A stretch of 12,871 nt of DNA, taken from positions 1-12,871 of the forward strand of contig PXQM01000116.1 of the NCBI GenBank assembly GCA_003021325.1, in the 5' to 3' direction. This DNA is from Halobacteriales archaeon QH_10_70_21. GTDB taxonomy: Archaea; Halobacteriota; Halobacteria; Halobacteriales; Haloarculaceae. Below, piece after piece: positions 437-10,992 of this stretch. The notes below the pieces were generated by a model that had not been told where the DNA came from, did no database searches, and saw nothing but the letters and a program-made list of their open reading frames with translations. The position numbers and the translations under genes were made by a program. The number at the start of each line of letters is the position of its first letter. The first letter of the stretch is position 1.

Positions 437-1153
437 CTACCCCCCGAGGTAGAGCTTCGAGACCTCGGGGTCGTCCAGGAGGGAGTCGGCGTCGCCCTCG
501 TAGGCGACGGTCCCCTGGTCGAGGACGTAGCCGCGGTCGGAGATGTTCAGGCCCTTGATGGCGTTCTGCTCGACCATGAGGATGGCCGTGTCCATGGCGT
601 TGACGGCCTCGACGTGGCCGAAGACCTCGTCGGCGGTGTTCGGCGCCAGCCCCGCCGACGGCTCGTCGACGAGGAGGACGTCGGGCTCCATGACCAGCGC
701 CCGGGCGAAGGCGAGCACCTGCCGCTGACCGCCCGAGAGGTCCCGCGCCTTCGCCCCCCGCTTCTCCCGGAGGATGTCGAACCGTTCGTAGAGGTCCTCG
801 ATGACCGCCTCGAGGCGGTCGTCGTCGCGGGCGACCCCGCCCATCCGGAGGTTCCCGTCGATGGTGAGCGAGCCGAACACGTTGTCGGTCTGCGGGACGT
901 AGCCGATTCCCTCGCGGACGATGTCCTCGGGTGCCATGCCGCCGATGTCGTCGCCGTGGTACCGGACGGCCCCCGTCCACGGCGTCAGCAGCCCGAAGAC
1001 CGTCTTGAGGACCGTCGACTTCCCGGCGCCGTTGGGGCCGATGAGACAGACGATTTCGCCGGCCTCGAGGTGCAGCGAGAGGTCCTCGAGGACCTGCACC
1101 TCGCCGTAGCCGCCGTCGACGTCGGACAGCTCGAGGACGGGCCGGCCGCTCAC
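437..1153 (-). CDS. livF: LivF-type ATPase of a branched-chain amino-acid (HAAT family) ABC importer
   Basis: This 238-residue ABC ATPase is close to the usual LivF length. Visible motifs are Walker A GPNGAGKST (39-47), Q-loop Gln88 in 'YVPQTD', signature LSGGQRQ (139-145), Walker B VLLVDEP (159-165) and the LivF-typical switch 'MVEQN' (194-198), where Gln replaces the usual His. It would hydrolyse ATP on the cytoplasmic face, paired with the LivG ATPase, to drive uptake through LivHM. The start is GTG at 1153, overlapping the livG TGA by four bases (GTGA). The end of livG supplies a GGGGGTGG stretch that can serve as ribosome-binding site. It is the last gene of the five-gene operon. The family is certain; whether the cargo is branched-chain amino acids, an amide or urea is not decided by the sequence. 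Confidence 0.95.
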   Translation of the reverse strand: MSGRPVLELSDVDGGYGEVQVLEDLSLHLEAGEIVCLIGPNGAGKSTVLKTVFGLLTPWTGAVRYHGDDIGGMAPEDIVREGIGYVPQTDNVFGSLTIDGNLRMGGVARDDDRLEAVIEDLYERFDILREKRGAKARDLSGGQRQVLAFARALVMEPDVLLVDEPSAGLAPNTADEVFGHVEAVNAMDTAILMVEQNAIKGLNISDRGYVLDQGTVAYEGDADSLLDDPEVSKLYLGG

Positions 1154-1992
1154 GCGCCACCCCCGAGGTAGGCGTCGATGACGCGCTCGTCGGCCTGCAC
1201 GTGCTCGGGCGGGCCCTGCGTGAGGACGCTGCCGCGGTGGAGGACGATGACCGGGTCCGCGAGGTCCATCACGAACTCCATGTCGTGCTCGATGAGCAGG
1301 CAGGTCGTGCCGGCCTCGTTGAGCCGGCGTATCTGGGCGGCGAGCTTCTTGCGGAGCGTCGGGTTGACGCCCGCGGCGGGCTCGTCGAGCAGCAGTATCT
1401 CCGGCTCGGCCAGCATCGCGCGGGCCAGCTCGACCAGCTTGGTCTGGCCGCCGGAGATGTCGGTCGCCGGCTGCGTGGCCAGGTGGTCGATCTCGAACTC
1501 GGCGAGCATCCGCTCGGCGTCGGCGAGGTTCCGCTTCTCGGCCGCCCCGACCTCGCCCGGCGAGGTGAACAGCTTCAGGAACGACTCGCCGGGCTGGTCC
1601 TGCGGGCCCACGAGCATCGCCTCCCGGACCGTCATGCCCTCGAGCTTGCGGGGCGTCTGGAACGTCCGGATGAGGCCGTGGTCGGCCACCTCGTACGGCT
1701 CGAGCCCGGTGACGTCGACGCCGTTGACCTCGACGCGGCCCGCGTCCGGCTCGTAGAAGCCCGAGACGAGGTTGAATATCGTCGACTTGCCGGCGCCGTT
1801 CGGTCCGATGAGGCCGGTGATGGTGCCGCGCTCGACCTCGAAGGTGGCGTCGTCGGTCGCGACGAGGCCGCCGAACTCCTTGCGGAGGTCCTCGACGCTG
1901 AGGACGACGTCGTCGGTCGGCCCGCCGGTCCCGGCCGCCGCGTCGGCGGCGTCTCCGGCGGCGGGCTCCCGGTCGGCGACGGCGTCAGTCAT
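1150..1992 (-). CDS. livG: LivG-type ATPase of a branched-chain amino-acid (HAAT family) ABC importer
   Basis: From ATG at 1992 the protein has 280 residues: an Ala/Asp/Gly-rich N-terminal extension of about 28 residues, then a complete ABC ATPase. Motifs are Walker A GPNGAGKST (63-71), Q-loop Gln112 in 'RTFQTPRKL', signature ISGGQTK (179-185), Walker B ILLLDEP (199-205) and switch His236 in 'IEHDM'. The 'RTFQ' Q-loop context and C-terminal 'AYLG' are typical of LivG. A GTG at 2001 is also in frame, but a Shine-Dalgarno-like GGGGTGAG lies about five bases before the ATG and overlaps the GTG, so the ATG is preferred. The start overlaps the livM stop by eight bases, which suggests translational coupling. 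The acidic extension is probably a halophilic feature with no catalytic role. Confidence 0.94.
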   Translation of the reverse strand: MTDAVADREPAAGDAADAAAGTGGPTDDVVLSVEDLRKEFGGLVATDDATFEVERGTITGLIGPNGAGKSTIFNLVSGFYEPDAGRVEVNGVDVTGLEPYEVADHGLIRTFQTPRKLEGMTVREAMLVGPQDQPGESFLKLFTSPGEVGAAEKRNLADAERMLAEFEIDHLATQPATDISGGQTKLVELARAMLAEPEILLLDEPAAGVNPTLRKKLAAQIRRLNEAGTTCLLIEHDMEFVMDLADPVIVLHRGSVLTQGPPEHVQADERVIDAYLGGGA

Positions 1993-3151
1993 CGCTCTCA
2001 CCCCGGGCCTCCCGGACGCCGGTGTCGGGCCGTTCCGGCGCCTCGTCGACGGCGCTCGGCCAGATGAGCTCCCGCTGTGGCGGCAGGATGCCCTGCGGCC
2101 GGAACCGCATCAGGAGGACGATGAGCAGGCCGATCATCACCAGCCGGAGCGGCGGGGCCTCGAGCGGTATCCACTCGAGGCCGGTGAGGCCGCGCGTCCC
2201 CTCGCGGAGGACGACGACGACGACGCCGCCGAACACCGCCCCGCGCGTCGAGCCGGTGCCGCCGAGGATGACCGCGACCCACACGTAGAACGTCGTGATG
2301 GGGTCGAGCGTGGCCGGGCTGACGAAGAGGTTGAGGTGGGCGTAGAAGACGCCCGCAAGCGCCATCACGAGGCTGCCGAGGACGAACGCCTGGAGCTTGA
2401 ACAGGTAGGTGTTCTTGCCGAGCGCGCGGGCGAGGTCCTCGTCCGAGCGGATGGTCCGGAGCACCCGCCCCCACGGCGAGCGGTGGACCCGCGAGAGCAG
2501 GAGGTAGCTGCCGACCACGAAGACGGTGACGAGCAGGACGTTCAGCAGCATCCGGTAGAACGGCGTCCCGAGTTCGATGACCGGACCGAGCGGGACGGCG
2601 ATGCGGAGCCCGGGCATCGCCTCGGGGAACGTCGAGAGGACGGGCCAGCCGTCGAAGAAGCCGGGGATGCCCCGGACGCCGAGGTTCCCGTTCGTCCAGC
2701 GCCGTTCGTTGAGAATGACCCGGCGGACGACCTCGGCCAGCCCCAGCGAGGCGATGGCGAGGTAGTCCGCCCGGAGCCGCAGCGTCGGGAGCCCGATGAA
2801 CAGCGCCAGGACCGTCGCCAGCACGAGCGCGACGGCCAGCCCGTACACCGAGTTGAAACCACCGGCGACCGGCGAGCTGCTCGCGGTCATCAGCGCCGCG
2901 CCGTAGGCACCGATGCCGAAGAAGGCGGCGACGCTGAAGTTGATGAGCCCGCTGAACCCCCACTGGGAGTTCAGCCCGAGCGACAGCAACGCGTACATTC
3001 CGGCGAGCCCGACGAGAAAGAGGAAGTACGTCGGACCGAGCCGCCCCGAGAGCAGCCCGAGGAGCAGGACGGCGCCGAACGCGGCGACGGCGACCGTCAC
3101 GCCCTGCTCTTCGGCCGTCATATCGCTCACCATCCCGGTAGCGTCGGCCAT
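1985..3151 (-). CDS. livM: LivM-type permease of a branched-chain amino-acid (HAAT family) ABC importer
   Basis: This 388-residue polytopic membrane protein has the hallmarks of LivM. A 'GLNSQWGFSGLINFSVAAF' segment (59-77) leads to a Gly/Ala helix, 'LRLRADYLAIASLGLAEV' (124-141) is the conserved segment before the coupling region, 'NLGVRGIPG' follows at about 156-164, and the C-terminal 'GTGSTRGAVFGG' loop is typical. It forms the translocation channel with LivH and receives LivG/LivF at the cytoplasmic face. The ATG at 3151 is one base after the livH stop (TGAGATG) and is preceded by a very strong purine-rich ribosome-binding site, GGGGAGGGGGG; an internal ATG at 3133 is less likely. The C-terminus ends in an acidic, arginine-containing tail of about 30 residues that is probably cytoplasmic. 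Confidence 0.94.
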   Translation of the reverse strand: MADATGMVSDMTAEEQGVTVAVAAFGAVLLLGLLSGRLGPTYFLFLVGLAGMYALLSLGLNSQWGFSGLINFSVAAFFGIGAYGAALMTASSSPVAGGFNSVYGLAVALVLATVLALFIGLPTLRLRADYLAIASLGLAEVVRRVILNERRWTNGNLGVRGIPGFFDGWPVLSTFPEAMPGLRIAVPLGPVIELGTPFYRMLLNVLLVTVFVVGSYLLLSRVHRSPWGRVLRTIRSDEDLARALGKNTYLFKLQAFVLGSLVMALAGVFYAHLNLFVSPATLDPITTFYVWVAVILGGTGSTRGAVFGGVVVVVLREGTRGLTGLEWIPLEAPPLRLVMIGLLIVLLMRFRPQGILPPQRELIWPSAVDEAPERPDTGVREARGESDD

Positions 3152-3152
3152 C

Positions 3153-4100
3153 TCAGCCCCCCTCCCCGGCGATGCCGGTCGGTCGGACGAGCAGGACCGC
3201 GACCATGATGACGAAGGCGACCGCCTCCGCGTACTCGATGCCGATGGGGACGCCGAACGCGTCGGGGACGAGCGGGAGCAGTTCGCCGACGTCCGACAGC
3301 AGTGGCATCGCCTCGTGTATCATCCCGATGAGGAGGCCGCCGAGCATCGCCCCGTAGACGGAGCCGATGCCGCCGAGGATGACCGCCGCGAAGACGAGCA
3401 GGAGCAGGTTGAACCCCATCCGGGGGCTCAGCCGGTTGAACAGCCCGAGGAAGACGCCGCCGACGCCCGCGAGGCCGCCGCCGATTGTCCACGTGACGAG
3501 CCGGATGCGGTCGGTCCGGATGCCGCTGACGCGGGCCAGCTCCGGGTCGTCCGCCATCGCGCGCATCTTCCGGCCGAGGTCCGTGTACTGCAGCAGGGCG
3601 TGGAGGCAGCCGACGAGGACGACCGACGTGACCACGATGGCGACGTCGTGGTATGTCACCCGGACGCCGTAGGGAATCAACGACTCGATGGGGCGGAGCC
3701 GCTGGACGCCGTACCGCGTGGGTTCGGCGGAGAAGACCATCTGGACGAGCCCGCGGTAGATGAACGCGACGCCGATGGAGGTGATGAGCAGACCGATGGA
3801 GCCGACCTCCAGCGGGTCGTAGACGACCTTCTCGGTCACGACGGCCACGAGGGCTGCGACGGCGAAGCCGGCCGAAAGCGCGAGGAAGAAGGCGGCCGGG
3901 AGGCCGAGCACGGCGGGTCCCCCGACGCCGCCGACGGCGCCGAACGTCACCAGGGTGGCGTAGGCGCCGACGGTCATCGTATCGCCGTGGGCGAAGTTGG
4001 CGAAGTCGGCGATGCTGTAGACGAGCGACAGCCCGATGCTCCCGAGCACGATGATGCTGCTGAACACCAGCCCGTTGGCGAGCAACCCGAGAGCGGCCAT
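3153..4100 (-). CDS. livH: LivH-type permease of a branched-chain amino-acid (HAAT family) ABC importer
   Basis: This 315-residue hydrophobic protein matches the LivH permease. The N-terminal segment 'LVYSIADFANFAHGDTMTVG' (26-45) is the family signature. Several long hydrophobic helices follow, with a 'DDPELARVSGIRTDRI' cytoplasmic loop corresponding to the coupling region. The last third has 'FAAVILGGIGSVYGAMLGG', the typical final LivH loop-helix. It pairs with LivM to form the membrane channel. The start at 4100 is six bases after the stop of the substrate-binding protein gene. The ribosome-binding site is weak (GAGGG about 13 bases upstream), so translation may depend on coupling to the upstream gene. 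Length and motifs are complete, with no sign of damage. Confidence 0.94.
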   Translation of the reverse strand: MAALGLLANGLVFSSIIVLGSIGLSLVYSIADFANFAHGDTMTVGAYATLVTFGAVGGVGGPAVLGLPAAFFLALSAGFAVAALVAVVTEKVVYDPLEVGSIGLLITSIGVAFIYRGLVQMVFSAEPTRYGVQRLRPIESLIPYGVRVTYHDVAIVVTSVVLVGCLHALLQYTDLGRKMRAMADDPELARVSGIRTDRIRLVTWTIGGGLAGVGGVFLGLFNRLSPRMGFNLLLLVFAAVILGGIGSVYGAMLGGLLIGMIHEAMPLLSDVGELLPLVPDAFGVPIGIEYAEAVAFVIMVAVLLVRPTGIAGEGG

Positions 4101-4106
4101 CGGCGC

Positions 4107-5402
4107 TCAGCCCTCGACGAAGCCGGCCTCGACGTACTCGTGGTCCTCGACCTCGAGTATCTGGAGGAAGCCGACGGGGTCGCCGTTCTCGTCGAGGTCG
4201 ATGGGACCGCTGACGCCCTGGTAGTCGACGTCCCCGGGTCCGCCGCCGTCGGCGAGTATCTCGCTCGCGGCCTCGAAGCTGGTCACCGCCTCCCCCTCGG
4301 GGCGGGTGACGTCGCGGACGACCTCGCCGAGGGCGGCACCGCTGAACTCGTCGGCCGCCTGGATGGTGATCGCCGCCGTGACGACGCAGTCGTAGGCGAA
4401 GGCGGCCCACGTCGTCGGCGGGTCGCCGTACTCGTCCTCGAACCGCGAGGCGAACGCCTGGTAGTTCTCCTGGTCGACGGGGGCCGACGGGAGCGCGATC
4501 TTCATGCCCTCCATGCTGCCCTCCGGCGTCTCCTCGATCACGCTCGACCCCTGGGTGGAGTCGGTCCCGTAGAACTGCGCCTCGTAGCCGCTGGAGAACA
4601 CCTCGTTCACCATCGAGATGAACACGTCCTGGTAGGTGTTGAACAGCCACGCGTCGGCACCGGAGTCGTTCATCTCCGAGACGACGCTCGAGTAGGACTG
4701 CTGGTCCCTGTCGTGTGGGCTGTTGTAGACGACCTCGCCGTCGTACGCCTCGACGAAGGCGTCGGTGAGCGTCTGCCCGAAGTCGTCGTTGACGAAGGTG
4801 ACCGCCACCTCGTCGTAGCCGTCCTCGGTGATGATGTCGGCCAGCGCGACCGACTGTGACCGCCCGCTGGGCGACATCCGCAGGAGGTCCGGGAACTCCG
4901 TCAGTCCCAGGCCGGTGGAGTTCTGGCTCAACTGGACGACGTCGGTGTCCTGGATGACGCTCTCGTAGATGGACAGCGAGACGCCGGAGCCCACCGCGCC
5001 GATGAGGAACGGAACCCCGTCCTGGTTCACGAGCTTCTGGGCGGCCGAGACGCCCCCCTGTGGCTCGCTCGTGGAGTCCTCGACGACGATGTCGAGTTCG
5101 CGGTCGCCGATACCGACCTCGTTGACCGCCGAGAGCGCGAGGTCCTTGCCGCGCTGGTTCCGCTCGCCGAACGCCGACAGCGACCCGGTCAGCGAGTTTA
5201 CCATCCCGATCTGGTAGGGCTCGGTCTCCTCGTCCGCGTCGCCGTTGCCGTCGCCGCTGGTCTCTGTGCCGTCGCCGTTGCCGTTGCCGTTGCCGTTTCC
5301 GTCGTCCGTGCTGACGCAGCCGGCGACCCACGCGAGGCCGGCGGCCCCGGAGGCCCGCAGCAGGGCCCGGCGGTCGGTCGTCGATGTGCTATCGTCGCTC
5401 AT
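4107..5402 (-). CDS. Extracellular substrate-binding lipoprotein of the HAAT-family ABC importer (LivK/UrtA-like fold)
   Basis: The ATG at 5402 gives 431 residues. The N-terminus has a Tat lipoprotein signal: Arg11-Arg12 in 'TTDRRALLRASG', a short hydrophobic stretch and a lipobox 'VAGC' with Cys29 as the likely lipidated residue. Next comes a flexible GNGNGNGDG tether (35-45) and acidic linker, then a type I periplasmic-binding-protein domain starting 'YQIGMVNSLTGSLSAFG', with the family's 'TGSLSAFG' ligand loop and 'FLIGAVGSGVS'. It would sit on the cell surface, bind the substrate and deliver it to LivHM. An upstream in-frame ATG at 5471 is rejected because the TATA box at 5434-5442 lies inside that extension. 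As first gene of the operon it probably sets overall expression. The ligand may be a branched-chain amino acid, amide, urea or another small molecule. Confidence 0.94.
   Translation of the reverse strand: MSDDSTSTTDRRALLRASGAAGLAWVAGCVSTDDGNGNGNGNGDGTETSGDGNGDADEETEPYQIGMVNSLTGSLSAFGERNQRGKDLALSAVNEVGIGDRELDIVVEDSTSEPQGGVSAAQKLVNQDGVPFLIGAVGSGVSLSIYESVIQDTDVVQLSQNSTGLGLTEFPDLLRMSPSGRSQSVALADIITEDGYDEVAVTFVNDDFGQTLTDAFVEAYDGEVVYNSPHDRDQQSYSSVVSEMNDSGADAWLFNTYQDVFISMVNEVFSSGYEAQFYGTDSTQGSSVIEETPEGSMEGMKIALPSAPVDQENYQAFASRFEDEYGDPPTTWAAFAYDCVVTAAITIQAADEFSGAALGEVVRDVTRPEGEAVTSFEAASEILADGGGPGDVDYQGVSGPIDLDENGDPVGFLQILEVEDHEYVEAGFVEG
5274..5300 (-). repeat. Hexanucleotide tandem repeat encoding the Gly-Asn tether of the binding protein
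   Basis: Four perfect copies of gccgtt (plus strand) run from 5274 to 5297 and are followed by a near copy. They lie inside the substrate-binding-protein gene and encode alternating Gly-Asn just after the lipidated Cys. A six-base unit keeps the frame, so slippage would only lengthen or shorten the tether between membrane anchor and binding domain. Such linkers are common in haloarchaeal surface lipoproteins. Confidence 0.85.
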
Positions 5403-5413
5403 TGGAGTACGTC

Positions 5414-5425
5414 GTACATCTGTAC
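5414..5425. promoter_or_regulatory. GTACA-TC-TGTAC palindrome at the importer operon promoter (candidate operator)
   Basis: The perfect inverted repeat GTACATCTGTAC lies between the TATA-like box (5434-5442) and the start codon (5402) of the operon. It overlaps the zone where transcription should begin, about 5410-5415. A third GTAC at 5407-5410 extends the pattern. A dimeric repressor bound here would block initiation, as is typical of archaeal operators downstream of TATA. No cognate regulator gene is in the window, and the function is inference. Confidence 0.4.
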
Positions 5426-5433
5426 CGGGAACA

Positions 5434-5442
5434 CTTAAAAAG
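5434..5442 (-). promoter_or_regulatory. TATA-like box for the importer operon
   Basis: Read on the minus strand the sequence is CTTTTTAAG, an AT-rich octamer standing out from GC-rich surroundings. Its centre is about 36 bases before the ATG at 5402, so transcription would begin about 10 bases before the start codon, giving a very short leader. It decides between the two possible starts of the binding protein. No other convincing promoter is seen inside the five-gene operon. Confidence 0.65.
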
Positions 5443-5561
5443 ATGCAGTCGATGGCCGGCGTTTCAGGCATTCGTTACCGATAGGGGCCGGCTACCGCCC
5501 CGGTCCGGGATGTGGCCGGGAACGTAACCGTTTCGACCGGCCGGAGCGAACCGTCGACCGT

Positions 5562-6536
5562 ATGGCTCCGTCCCTGGGTGCGCTGCTCGTTGGCGAGGTC
5601 CTGCCGCGGGTGCTGGTAATCGCGGTCGCCATCGCCGGCGGGGTCGCCATCGCGAACCTGCTCGTCGCCTTCGGCGCCGTCGACTACGTCGCGGCGCTGT
5701 CGGAGCCGCTGACGGGGCCGGCGAACCTCCCCGACGAGGTCGGCGGCGCCATCCTGACGACGGCGGCCTCGACCACCGCCGGCTACGGCATGCTCGCCGA
5801 GTACCGCGACTCGGGACTGCTCGACGACCGCGCGACGCTCGTCGCCGTCACCATCAACACGTTCTTCGGCTTCGTCCAGCACGTATTCACCTTCTACGCG
5901 CCGGTGCTGATACCCATCCTCGGGCTGCGGGTCGGCCTGCTGTACGTCGGCTTCCGGGCCGGCATCGCGCTGGCAATCACGTTGTCGGGGGTCGCCGCCG
6001 GCGCGGTCCTGCTCGGGCCGGGGAACGTCGACCCCGACGCGATGGTCGAGGTCGAGGCCGACGCCCGCGCGGACGGGGGCGAGGCCGCCGGAGACGACCG
6101 CGAGGACGGGGAGTCCGACGCCGAGGACGAGGAACCGTCGACGCCGCGGCTGGTCGTCGTCTACGCCGTCGTCGCCGCGCTAACGGCGTACTACGACCTC
6201 GAGGCGCTGACCGGCGGCGCAGCCGACCCGCTGGCGTCGCTGACGGGGCTGCCGTCGGCGGCCGTCCCCGTCATCGTGGTCTCCGCCGTCGACACCACGA
6301 GCGGCGCCGTCACCATCGCGCCGCTGATCGAGGACGGCGTCTTCACCGCCCGGACGGCCGTCGCGACGATGCTGCTGGGCGGCATCGTCTCCTTCACCGT
6401 CTCGACGTTCAAGCGCTCGATCCCGTTCCAGTTCGGCATCTGGGGGGCCGAGTTCGGAACGAAGGTGGTCCTCGTCAACACCGCGCTGAAGGTCGTCTGG
6501 ATCGCCGCCGCGCTCGTCGCGCTGTTGGCCTGGTGA
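5562..6536 (+). CDS. Nucleoside-recognition (Gate) domain membrane protein, archaeal type
   Basis: This 324-residue integral membrane protein of the nucleoside-recognition/Gate family has two halves with similar motifs. The first half has 'TGPANLPDEVGGAILTTAAS' then 'TTAGYGML' (51-78); the second has 'TGLPSAAVPVIVVSAVDTTS' then 'GAVTIAPL' (228-255). Each half is followed by a hydrophilic turn and further helices, including 'INTFFGFVQHVFTFYAPVLI' (98-117). A strongly acidic, probably cytoplasmic or extracellular, loop (about 163-195) joins the halves. The family resembles the core of concentrative nucleoside transporters and FeoB gate domains, but substrates of the archaeal stand-alone members are, as far as I know, not established. 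The ATG at 5562 fits the onset of the hydrophobic domain; I see no strong TATA box in front. It is transcribed divergently from the ABC importer. Confidence 0.8.
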   Translation: MAPSLGALLVGEVLPRVLVIAVAIAGGVAIANLLVAFGAVDYVAALSEPLTGPANLPDEVGGAILTTAASTTAGYGMLAEYRDSGLLDDRATLVAVTINTFFGFVQHVFTFYAPVLIPILGLRVGLLYVGFRAGIALAITLSGVAAGAVLLGPGNVDPDAMVEVEADARADGGEAAGDDREDGESDAEDEEPSTPRLVVVYAVVAALTAYYDLEALTGGAADPLASLTGLPSAAVPVIVVSAVDTTSGAVTIAPLIEDGVFTARTAVATMLLGGIVSFTVSTFKRSIPFQFGIWGAEFGTKVVLVNTALKVVWIAAALVALLAW

Positions 6537-8959: not shown

Positions 8960-10024
8960 ATGGACTGGCCAGCGTGGCTGACCGCGCCGAGCCCGCGCGT
9001 CCTCGACGGCTCGCTGCTCGTCGGCGTCGCCTTCGTCCTCGCGACCGGAATCGTGGGCCTCTACTCCGGGCGGCCCAGCCGGGCGTGGGTCTTCCTCACC
9101 CACGGGCTCGGCGGGCTGGTGCTGGCCGGGCTGGTCGGGCTGAAGCTCCGGCGGGTCCGCCCCCGGCTGCGCGGAATCCGCCACAGCGCCGTCGTCGCGC
9201 TCTCGGCGCTTCTGGCCGTCGTCACCGTCGGTGCCTTCGCCTCCGGTGTCGCCTGGGTGTTCGGCGCCTCCCTCGACCTCGGCCCCTGGGGGCTGCTGAA
9301 CCTCCACATCGGGCTCGGGCTCGTCGTCGCCGGGCTGCTGGCCGTCCACCTCCTGTCGCGCTTCCGGCTCCCCTCGCGGGCCGACTTCGAGGGGCGGCGG
9401 ACCGCACTCCGGTACACCGCCGCCGTCGTCGCCGGGGCGGCGGTCTACCGGCTCCAGGGCACGGTCAACGGCGCCCTCGAGACGGCCGGCGCCGAGCGCC
9501 GCTTCACCGGCTCCCGGGAGACGGGCAGCGACGACGGCAACGCCTTCCCGGTGACCAGCTGGGTGGCCGACGACCCCGACCCCGTCGGCGTGGCGTCGTG
9601 GTCGCTGACCGTCGACGGTGCCGTCGCCGAGCCGATGGACCTCGAGTACGCCGAGCTCGCCGCCGACGACGAGCGCCGCGCGCTGCTCGACTGCACGAGC
9701 GGCTGGTACTCCGAGCACGACTGGCGCGGCGTCGACGTCGGGTCGCTGCTGGACGCCGCCGACCCCGACGAGAGCGCGGCGTGGGTCTCCTTTCGCTCGG
9801 TCACCGGATACCGGTGGAGCCTGCCGATCGAGGAGGCCCGCGACGCCCTGCTGGCGACGGCCGTCGACGGCGAGCGGCTCGGCCACGGCCACGGCTTCCC
9901 GCTGCGACTCGTCGCCCCCGGCCGTCGCGGCTTCCAGTGGGTCAAGTGGGTCGAGGAGGTCCGGGTGACCCGCCGCCGGGACCACGCCGAGCGGGTCGCG
10001 ATATTCGTCAGCGGCCTCCGGTAG
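8960..10024 (+). CDS. Membrane-bound molybdopterin oxidoreductase fused to a four-His b-type cytochrome domain
   Basis: The 354-residue protein has an N-terminal membrane part and a C-terminal sulfite-oxidase/YedY-type molybdopterin domain. Four hydrophobic helices (about 15-37, 43-63, 75-101, 110-132) are followed by a fifth (about 150-166). His48 and His116 fall near one membrane face, His75 and His130 near the other, as expected for two b hemes. The basic loop 'KLRRVRPRLRGIRH' (62-75) places the N-terminus inside by the positive-inside rule. The catalytic domain (about 195-354) has the Mo-ligand candidate Cys245 in 'LLDCTSGWYSEHDWRGVDVG', plus 'GFPLRLVAPGRRGFQWVKWV' (312-331), typical of the fold. 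'EGRRTALRY' before helix five resembles a twin-arginine motif. The role is inferred as quinone-linked oxidation or reduction of a small substrate (sulfite or methionine-sulfoxide-like) outside the membrane. The gene converges on the UPF0201 gene with 21 bases between stops. Confidence 0.85.
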   Translation: MDWPAWLTAPSPRVLDGSLLVGVAFVLATGIVGLYSGRPSRAWVFLTHGLGGLVLAGLVGLKLRRVRPRLRGIRHSAVVALSALLAVVTVGAFASGVAWVFGASLDLGPWGLLNLHIGLGLVVAGLLAVHLLSRFRLPSRADFEGRRTALRYTAAVVAGAAVYRLQGTVNGALETAGAERRFTGSRETGSDDGNAFPVTSWVADDPDPVGVASWSLTVDGAVAEPMDLEYAELAADDERRALLDCTSGWYSEHDWRGVDVGSLLDAADPDESAAWVSFRSVTGYRWSLPIEEARDALLATAVDGERLGHGHGFPLRLVAPGRRGFQWVKWVEEVRVTRRRDHAERVAIFVSGLR

Positions 10025-10045: not shown

Positions 10046-10459
10046 TCAGGAATCGGGGTCGACCGGGGTCCCGTCCTCCGTCGGCGGCGCGACGTGGTCG
10101 ACGTAGCTCTCGACGTCCGGCTCGGTCACCCGCACGCGGACGTGGATGTCGCCCAGCTCGCTGTCGTCGCCGACCGCGAAGTTGACCACGCCGCGGAAGG
10201 CCGCCTGCTTCTTCAGCCGGAAGCTGAACGTGTCACCCTCCTGTCCCGAGAAGAAGGCGCCGCGGGCCGTGTCGAGGATGGCCTGCTCGTGGAGCCGCTC
10301 GGAGAACGCCTCCATCGAGTGGCAGGTGGCGACGAGTTCGCCCGGGTACGACTCGATTTCGGCCTCCGGGAAGAGGTTCCGAACCGCGTCGGCGACGCGG
10401 TCCGTCACCTCGGTGTCGTTGACCGGCGCCGTGACCTGGACGTCGACGCTGTATATCAT
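10046..10459 (-). CDS. UPF0201-family RNA-binding protein
   Basis: This 137-residue protein belongs to the archaeal UPF0201 family of predicted RNA-binding proteins. It opens 'MIYSVDVQVTAPVNDTEVTD', continues with 'AVRNLFPEAEIE', and has the diagnostic 'LHEQAILDTARGAF' and 'TFSFRLKKQAAFRGVVNFAV' segments. The family is thought to adopt a dsRBD-like or ribosomal-protein-L5-like fold; no reaction is established. Its ATG at 10459 overlaps the TGA of the upstream UPF0200 gene (ATGA), so the two are translationally coupled. The acidic C-terminal tail is ordinary for haloarchaea. This kinase-like plus RNA-binding pairing is recurrent in archaea and suggests a shared role in RNA or nucleotide metabolism, which remains inference. 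Confidence 0.9.
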   Translation of the reverse strand: MIYSVDVQVTAPVNDTEVTDRVADAVRNLFPEAEIESYPGELVATCHSMEAFSERLHEQAILDTARGAFFSGQEGDTFSFRLKKQAAFRGVVNFAVGDDSELGDIHVRVRVTEPDVESYVDHVAPPTEDGTPVDPDS

Positions 10460-10992
10460 CCGAGCACCTCCCGAACCTGCTCGCGGAACTCCTCGAGCGT
10501 TCCGGTGTTGTGGATAGTGCGGTCGGCCCGCTCCATCGCGTCACCGAGGCCGAACCCGAGTTCGCGCTCGTCTCGCACAGCGAGGCTCTCGCCGTCGTCG
10601 CCGACGTTGTCTCGGCCCCGCTCGCCGACCCGCTGCCGCCGGAGCTCGAACGGCGCCTCGATGCTGACCAGCAGAAAGTCCTCGCCGAACCGCTCCTCGA
10701 AGACCTCGACCTCGACGTCCGAGCGGATGCCGTCGACGAGAACGGTATCGGCGTCCGCCAGCGCCGCCTCGACGTGCGGCAGCGACGCCTCGGCGATGGC
10801 CGTCGGTCCGTTCTCCTCGCGGAGCGCCTGGGCCACCGCGCCGTGGTGCTCGGCTGGGTCCAGCCCCCGGTCGCGGCACGCTTGACGGATGACGTCGCCC
10901 ATCGTGACGGCCGGGACGCCCAGCTCCTCGGCGACGGTCGCGAACTCGCCCTTGCCGCTGCCGGCCAGCCCGACGGTTCCGATGACTCGCAT
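10456..10992 (-). CDS. UPF0200-family P-loop nucleotide kinase-like protein
   Basis: The 178-residue protein is a small P-loop NTPase of the archaeal UPF0200 group, related to dephospho-CoA and adenylate kinases. It has Walker A 'GLAGSGKGE' (8-16), 'VTMGDVIR' (29-36) as substrate-binding segment, 'VLVDGIRSDVEVE' (84-96) as the Walker-B-like region, 'LVSIEAPFELRRQR' (108-121), and a lid 'RDERELGFGLGDAMERAD' (140-157) followed by 'IHNTGTLEEF'. The phosphoryl acceptor is unknown; true dephospho-CoA kinase activity should not be assumed. The ATG at 10992 is about 29 bases after a TATA-like box, consistent with a leaderless transcript. It is the first gene of a two-gene operon with the UPF0201 gene. 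Confidence 0.9.
   Translation of the reverse strand: MRVIGTVGLAGSGKGEFATVAEELGVPAVTMGDVIRQACRDRGLDPAEHHGAVAQALREENGPTAIAEASLPHVEAALADADTVLVDGIRSDVEVEVFEERFGEDFLLVSIEAPFELRRQRVGERGRDNVGDDGESLAVRDERELGFGLGDAMERADRTIHNTGTLEEFREQVREVLG

Follow-up and report, generated by a model that had tools for sequence, protein, structure and literature searches.

The DNA analysed here, called the window below, comprises 12,871 nucleotides, positions 1 to 12,871 of contig PXQM01000116.1 (forward strand), of Halobacteriales archaeon QH_10_70_21 (assembly GCA_003021325.1). Its gene at 8960..10024, on the + strand like every part of it located below, starts with ATG and encodes, as judged from its open reading frame (ORF), Pfam and homologue searches, a protein of 354 amino acids in which a five-helix membrane cytochrome b is followed by a molybdenum (Mo) domain. 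The main result of the analysis is that, among the relatives of this protein, a Lys on the second helix, Lys62, is conserved almost without exception, together with an Asp or an Asn on the first, at residue 16. Such a Lys matters because the redox potential of a heme is set by its ligands, and transmembrane b hemes usually are bis-His. Seen in the alignments, this joint conservation is a new observation; the fused architecture of heme and molybdenum cofactor (Moco), the comparison with MsrP/MsrQ and the lack of conservation of the His in the third transmembrane domain (TMD3) are already published in Tooke et al. 2017 (PMC5449189), so that the gene mainly adds a member.

Relatives were collected from proteins and from genomic contigs. 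Of the 7997 candidate proteins that were scored, 3755 matched at E <= 1e-5, and the best 120 of these were listed; a relative was also encoded in 85 genomic stretches, 80 of which, mostly titled Halobacteria, were retained. The main alignment comprises 292 proteins and the query. Five proteins were excluded from it, P0169, whose match covers 29% of the search query, and P0170-P0173 (36-41%), which carry neither His nor Lys at the aligned membrane columns; the others were grouped by judgement as haloarchaeal (161), intermediate (4) or bacterial-like (122). Identity of the bacterial-like proteins to the query, taken over the membrane part of the 118 rows of sufficient length, is 24-36%. A locus set, partly independent of the main alignment, contains 81 ORFs, of which 76 come from the 80 loci and 5 are repeat copies. 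Four frame-broken loci (L067, L075, L078 and L080) were left out of it; there the orthologue is not in a single open frame, by sequencing error or decay.

Lys62 (9143..9145), the candidate ligand of an inner heme, follows His48 by 14 residues. It is Lys in 282 of the 283 rows with a letter and Arg in none: the count is 160/161 for haloarchaeal, 4/4 for intermediate and 118/118 for bacterial-like rows, the sole exception being P0038, with Thr. Across 53 diverse membrane parts just 14 positions, Lys62 among them, do not vary; in the locus set Lys62, His48, His116, His130, R146, R147 and Cys245 are each found in 81/81 ORFs. Outside column 62, Arg makes up about 99% of the basic residues in the membrane part, with R:K ratios of 2751:29 in haloarchaeal and 2249:25 in bacterial-like rows; column 62 itself has 160 and 118 Lys, respectively, and no Arg. 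A role in topology, or in binding a heme propionate, would be expected to drift to Arg, but a need for a primary amine would not. Position 16 on TM1 (9005..9007), located by the alignment and by HHalign, is similarly constrained, being Asp in 160/160 haloarchaeal and Asn in 114/114 bacterial-like rows with a letter. The spacing between His48 and Lys62 is the same as that between His116 and His130, and 14-spaced invariant pairs are found in all four helices of the bundle, an arrangement that random placement reproduced in a fraction 0.0017 of 100,000 trials; since this null ignores helix periodicity, the spacing is not used as proof.

An earlier reading of the sequence alone, referred to here as the original prediction, had placed His48, His75, His116 and His130, together with Cys245, in a 354-residue ORF, and reading of ORF 8960-10024 (+) confirmed all five. 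It had paired His48 with His116 and His75 with His130 as ligands of two hemes, and proposed conservation among orthologues as a test. The former pair withstood it: His48 (9101..9103) is found in 283/283 and His116 (9305..9307) in 286/286 rows with a letter, and the two residues are the predicted ligands of an outer, bis-His heme b. His130 (9347..9349), assigned to the inner site, is equally invariant (287/287 rows). His75 (9182..9184) is variable, and the second pair fails. His75 occurs in 6 of the 120 best-listed proteins, in 7 of the 81 locus ORFs and, within the main alignment, in 7/161 haloarchaeal (30 gaps), 0/4 intermediate and 0/122 bacterial-like (120 gaps) rows. When misalignment was allowed for, by counting every row with a His somewhere in the 14-residue stretch up to position 84, the counts were 11/161, 0/4 and 15/118, respectively. 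His75 was therefore rejected as fourth heme ligand for lack of conservation.

The overall architecture was modelled with AlphaFold2, both for the full chain (47-row alignment, mean predicted local distance difference test score, pLDDT, 81.7) and for the membrane part alone (53-row alignment, 84.9); five long helices were obtained, followed in the full chain by the Mo domain. In the model, TM1 spans residues 12-35 (8993..9064), with D16 and G30 14 apart; TM2, with a cytoplasmic extension, residues 39-70 (9074..9169); TM3 residues 77-100 (9188..9259), with S82 and G96 14 apart; TM4 residues 112-134 (9293..9361), with His116 and His130 14 apart. TM5, residues 146-173 (9395..9478), is less hydrophobic than TM1-4. 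It starts with the twin arginine R146-R147 (9395..9400), a predicted internal motif for twin-arginine translocation (Tat), found by alignment in 287/287 rows. The Pfam domain Oxidored_molyb (PF00174, E 1.2e-29) covers residues 210-341 (9587..9982) and contains the predicted Mo ligand Cys245 (9692..9694), which aligns with a Cys of MsrP (1xdq) and whose conservation, on which the original prediction had staked its Mo site, extends to 287/287 rows. The predicted cytochrome b and the Mo domain lie in one chain, as first proposed; the helix count of four had missed TM5 and its invariant arginines. Loop net charges of the query (+6 for loop 63-77, -1 for loop 100-111) fit an N-terminus inside and, with five helices, a Mo domain outside, in agreement with the topology first proposed.

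Five TMDs, a C-terminal Moco domain and a twin arginine conserved before TMD5 have been described for Sco3746 (Tooke et al. 2017, PMC5449189), whose homologues occur across actinobacteria and also in firmicutes, chloroflexi and euryarchaeota. Sec and Tat dependence was shown there by using Sco3746 reporter fusions, with Tat inserting the last helix, and the result is repeated in a 2022 review (PMC9360617). His residues in TMDs 2, 3 and 4 were predicted to bind two hemes b; that at the N-terminal end of TMD3 was reported as non-conserved, and the fourth His was drawn as uncertain. The protein was also likened to the split MsrP/MsrQ system. A homologue from Haloprofundus marisrubri appears in Table 4 of the paper, and locus L024, of the same species, is 55% identical to the query. 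The protein studied here shares with the Sco3746 family the five TMDs, the twin arginine before TMD5, a TMD5 of low hydrophobicity followed by positive charges, the Mo domain at the C-terminus, and a His pattern in which the three of TMD2 and TMD4 are conserved and that of TMD3 varies. Mean peak hydrophobicity of TM5 is 1.05, versus 2.04-2.39 for the other helices, in the 161 haloarchaeal rows, and 1.45 versus 2.23-2.42 in the bacterial-like ones; these values are on the Kyte-Doolittle scale, while Tooke et al. used the dG server. R146-R147 and the weakly hydrophobic TM5 are recognizable as the marks of the Sec-to-Tat handover described by those authors and, judged from these features, the protein belongs with the Sco3746-type heme-Moco proteins and would be Sec/Tat dual-targeted like them. 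The difference lies in how the inner site is described: in the portions of that paper drawn on here two hemes are depicted, and neither the conserved Lys nor the Asp/Asn of TM1 is mentioned.

A possible origin for the inner site is provided by the b561-type cytochromes. PF01292 is matched at E <= 0.01 by 38 of the 53 members, making kinship likely, although the query itself scores 18.1 bits and does not reach the curated cut-off of 30.1. The match coordinates show that the first half of PF01292 is matched by TM1-TM2 in some members and by TM3-TM4 in others, hinting at an internal repeat in the membrane bundle. Subunits of this type, such as FdnI and the hydrogenase cytochrome b, share with the query the TM2 His and the His-x13-His of TM4, but here Asp/Asn stands in place of the TM1 His, and the TM2 His is followed, 14 residues on, by the conserved Lys. 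In FdnI, the cytoplasmic heme is bound by the TM1 His and the second TM4 His. For comparison, 32 archaeal PF01292 proteins, from 52 loci fetched, were used in two sets (20 and 12). Four His are aligned in every one of the 32, one of them on TM1, and a Lys at a distance of 12-16 residues from the TM2 His, on its C-terminal side, is seen in none. The top-ranked HHalign alignment to either set puts Asp16 opposite the TM1 His, and His48, His116 and His130 opposite the other three. The simplest reading is a ligand swap, in which the inner site would have lost its TM1 His and gained a Lys on TM2. Two points limit the support from HHalign: the significance of its alignments is low (E 0.0092 and 0.0056, probability 4.4% and 6.5%), and lower-ranked ones, as well as the Pfam match of the query itself, use other registers. 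The swap is therefore supported, not decided.

These data were combined into a complete account, held to be reasonably probable as a whole, in which the protein is a Sco3746-type single-chain membrane molybdoenzyme with an inner site lined by Lys62 and His130. The cytochrome b bundle, TM1-4, would be inserted by Sec. By analogy with Sco3746, TM5, behind R146-R147, would be inserted by Tat after cytoplasmic folding of the Mo domain, so as to leave the domain outside. A bis-His heme b, held by His48 and His116, would lie near the outer face, adjoining the Mo domain. The inner site would have been rebuilt, with Asp/Asn16 on TM1, His130 kept and Lys62 gained on TM2; Lys62 and His130, both lining it, would most likely coordinate a second heme b axially, as a His-Lys pair, or else they would belong to a quinol site without heme. 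The proposed electron path runs from quinol to the inner site, the outer heme and Mo, and ends with the reduction of an external substrate, as in MsrPQ. The direction of flow and the external substrate are put forward as proposals, as were the substrate and the quinone linkage of the original prediction.

Taken by itself, the assignment of the inner site as a His130-Lys62 heme b is tentative, with a chance somewhat short of even. Replacement of one His by Lys in bc1 gives functional, low-spin hemes b with raised midpoints, for which a gz near 3.2 in electron paramagnetic resonance is the signature (Pintscher et al. 2016, PMC4807273). In the portions of that paper drawn on here, the authors state that, to their knowledge, no Met or Lys is a natural heme ligand in integral membrane proteins, and expect some natural cases to await identification. 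No later natural His-Lys membrane heme was found in the open-licence literature, the long result lists of which were covered in part. If the His-Lys reading is true, a raised midpoint potential would be expected for the inner heme, by extension from the bc1 mutants.

The closest competitor assumes a monoheme cytochrome b, in which only the outer heme is present and Asp/Asn16, Lys62, Ser82 and His130 form a cytoplasmic-side quinol-oxidation site or a proton path. This is a genuine possibility, if a somewhat doubtful one. The facts that the three conserved His provide a single bis-His pair, that the polar Asp/Asn16 and Ser82 are predicted at the inner level and that Lys can bind quinol, as does Lys86 of NarI, all speak for it. 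Against it stand the absence of Arg at position 62 from all 283 rows, although Arg outnumbers Lys about 100-fold in the rest of the membrane part, and the invariance of His130, which matches that of the outer ligands; in addition, some relatives have Gly or Ala at position 82, which would leave room for a heme. A five-coordinate inner heme, having His130 as its sole protein ligand and Lys62 paired with a propionate or with Asp16, is improbable. Asp16 and Lys62 are indeed polar residues with the same predicted level in the membrane, but Lys62 persists in the bacterial-like rows, where position 16 is uniformly Asn. A simple salt bridge is thus not retained across the family, and heme propionate partners are often Arg.

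A two-heme cytochrome of the classical kind, in which His75 would be the fourth ligand, is very improbable; it was put forward in the original prediction and drawn, with a question mark, by Tooke et al. His75 is present in the query and in seven relatives, mostly the nearest ones, and is predicted on the His130 side; apart from the low counts given above, it precedes TM3 in the model. Whatever the inner site, electrons could also run the opposite way, the Mo domain oxidising sulfite or another external donor and passing electrons via heme to the quinone pool. This is considered unlikely. Sulfite dehydrogenases are the best structural matches, and one source names a homologue 'sulfite oxidase', but the SoxC, SorA and SorT equivalogs score far below their cut-offs (52.3/420, 47/600 and 34.8/570 bits, respectively), and the best score, also below cut-off, is that of the reductase MsrP (NF003767, 55.6 of 207 bits).

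MsrP/MsrQ (YedY/YedZ) resembles the protein in having a sulfite-oxidase-fold Mo domain, with a Cys aligned to Cys245, served by a membrane heme protein, but there two chains are used instead of one. The MsrQ ferric-reductase profile (PF01794) is found neither among the 3 families matched by the query (E <= 0.1) nor among the 14 of the 53 members (E <= 0.01). The bc1/b6f cytochrome b profile (PF00033) likewise has no match in the query or in the 53 members, and sequence homology to bc1 cytochrome b was rejected after HHalign comparison with 15 haloarchaeal cytochromes b (E 0.19). An inner-pair Lys is present in the engineered H212K mutant of bc1, but on another helix (PMC4807273). Among PDB sequences, the profile of the membrane alignment matched only three, all rhodopsin-type (E 0.43-1.4), and these were taken as chance.

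The distribution of the fusion was examined in two genome samples. In a class-wide sample of 145 genomes, 73 had a full-length match, 2 a two-piece match in one open frame and 1 a partial match, which sits at a contig start; some match was found in 139 of the 145, and the others listed match in the Mo domain. Of 148 genomes drawn across the phylum, 12 had a full-length or two-piece match, all of them already in the class sample; the other matches listed cover the Mo domain, a few extending back into the preceding helix. Within the archaeal phylum sampled, the fusion therefore looks limited to the class Halobacteria. In the two-piece orthologues (G013:C15:35613-36722 and G020:C8:150928-152064), 63 and 93 bases separate the pieces in one open frame, and the gap, at model position about 262-264, suggests an insertion in the Mo domain. 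The names given to relatives by their sources ('sulfite oxidase', 'cytochrome b561', 'DMSO/TMAO reductase YedYZ molybdopterin-dependent catalytic subunit') vary, and already reflect the fusion.

Among viral contigs, 17 stretches fit a pattern and none was confirmed as a relative; among plasmids, 313 records matched, none having a single place covering 80% of the query. Of the 60 plasmid matches listed, 8 were inspected: two are split pairs, five carry a single annotated Mo gene, and one, L097, is a stretch with no annotation. In the split pairs, from Streptomyces (L098:2324-3725 and L100:1791-3285), a Mo oxidoreductase gene overlaps a cytochrome b/b6 gene, so that the two functions are neighbours as in the fusion but in two genes; the L098 cytochrome, read by eye, has a TM1 His and a Gly at the place of Lys62. 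L097:1607-3406 is an ORF of 599 amino acids with hydrophobic stretches, without the His pattern. Together with P0170-P0173 it belongs to long PF00174 proteins with several hydrophobic stretches and a twin arginine, located in most of them shortly before the last hydrophobic stretch; these may be a heme-free kind of membrane-Mo fusion.

No redox partner gene was found to accompany the family when 11 neighbours in the window were tested over the 80 related loci. The most recurrent neighbours, an RNA-binding protein (PF01877) and an AAA/kinase-like protein encoded by a downstream gene pair (10046-10992, - strand, Pfam), are found at 38/80 loci each; the pair is probably housekeeping, and gene neighbours were discarded as a clue to the substrate. 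Elsewhere in the window, Pfam identified a Gate-domain (PF07670) membrane protein (5562-6536, + strand), with relatives in 18 of the 80 loci, and a branched-chain amino-acid type ABC (ATP-binding cassette) transporter cluster (437-5471, - strand) of two ATPases, two permeases and one binding protein.

That the proteins constitute a natural His-Lys heme family, spread over haloarchaea and actinobacterial-like bacteria, with the site inside a transmembrane bundle and arisen by ligand swap, is a conjecture suggested by the alignments and held a shade more cautiously than the His-Lys heme itself. Either a large natural family of this kind or a heme site turned into a quinol site, if true, would show evolution retuning membrane electron wires.
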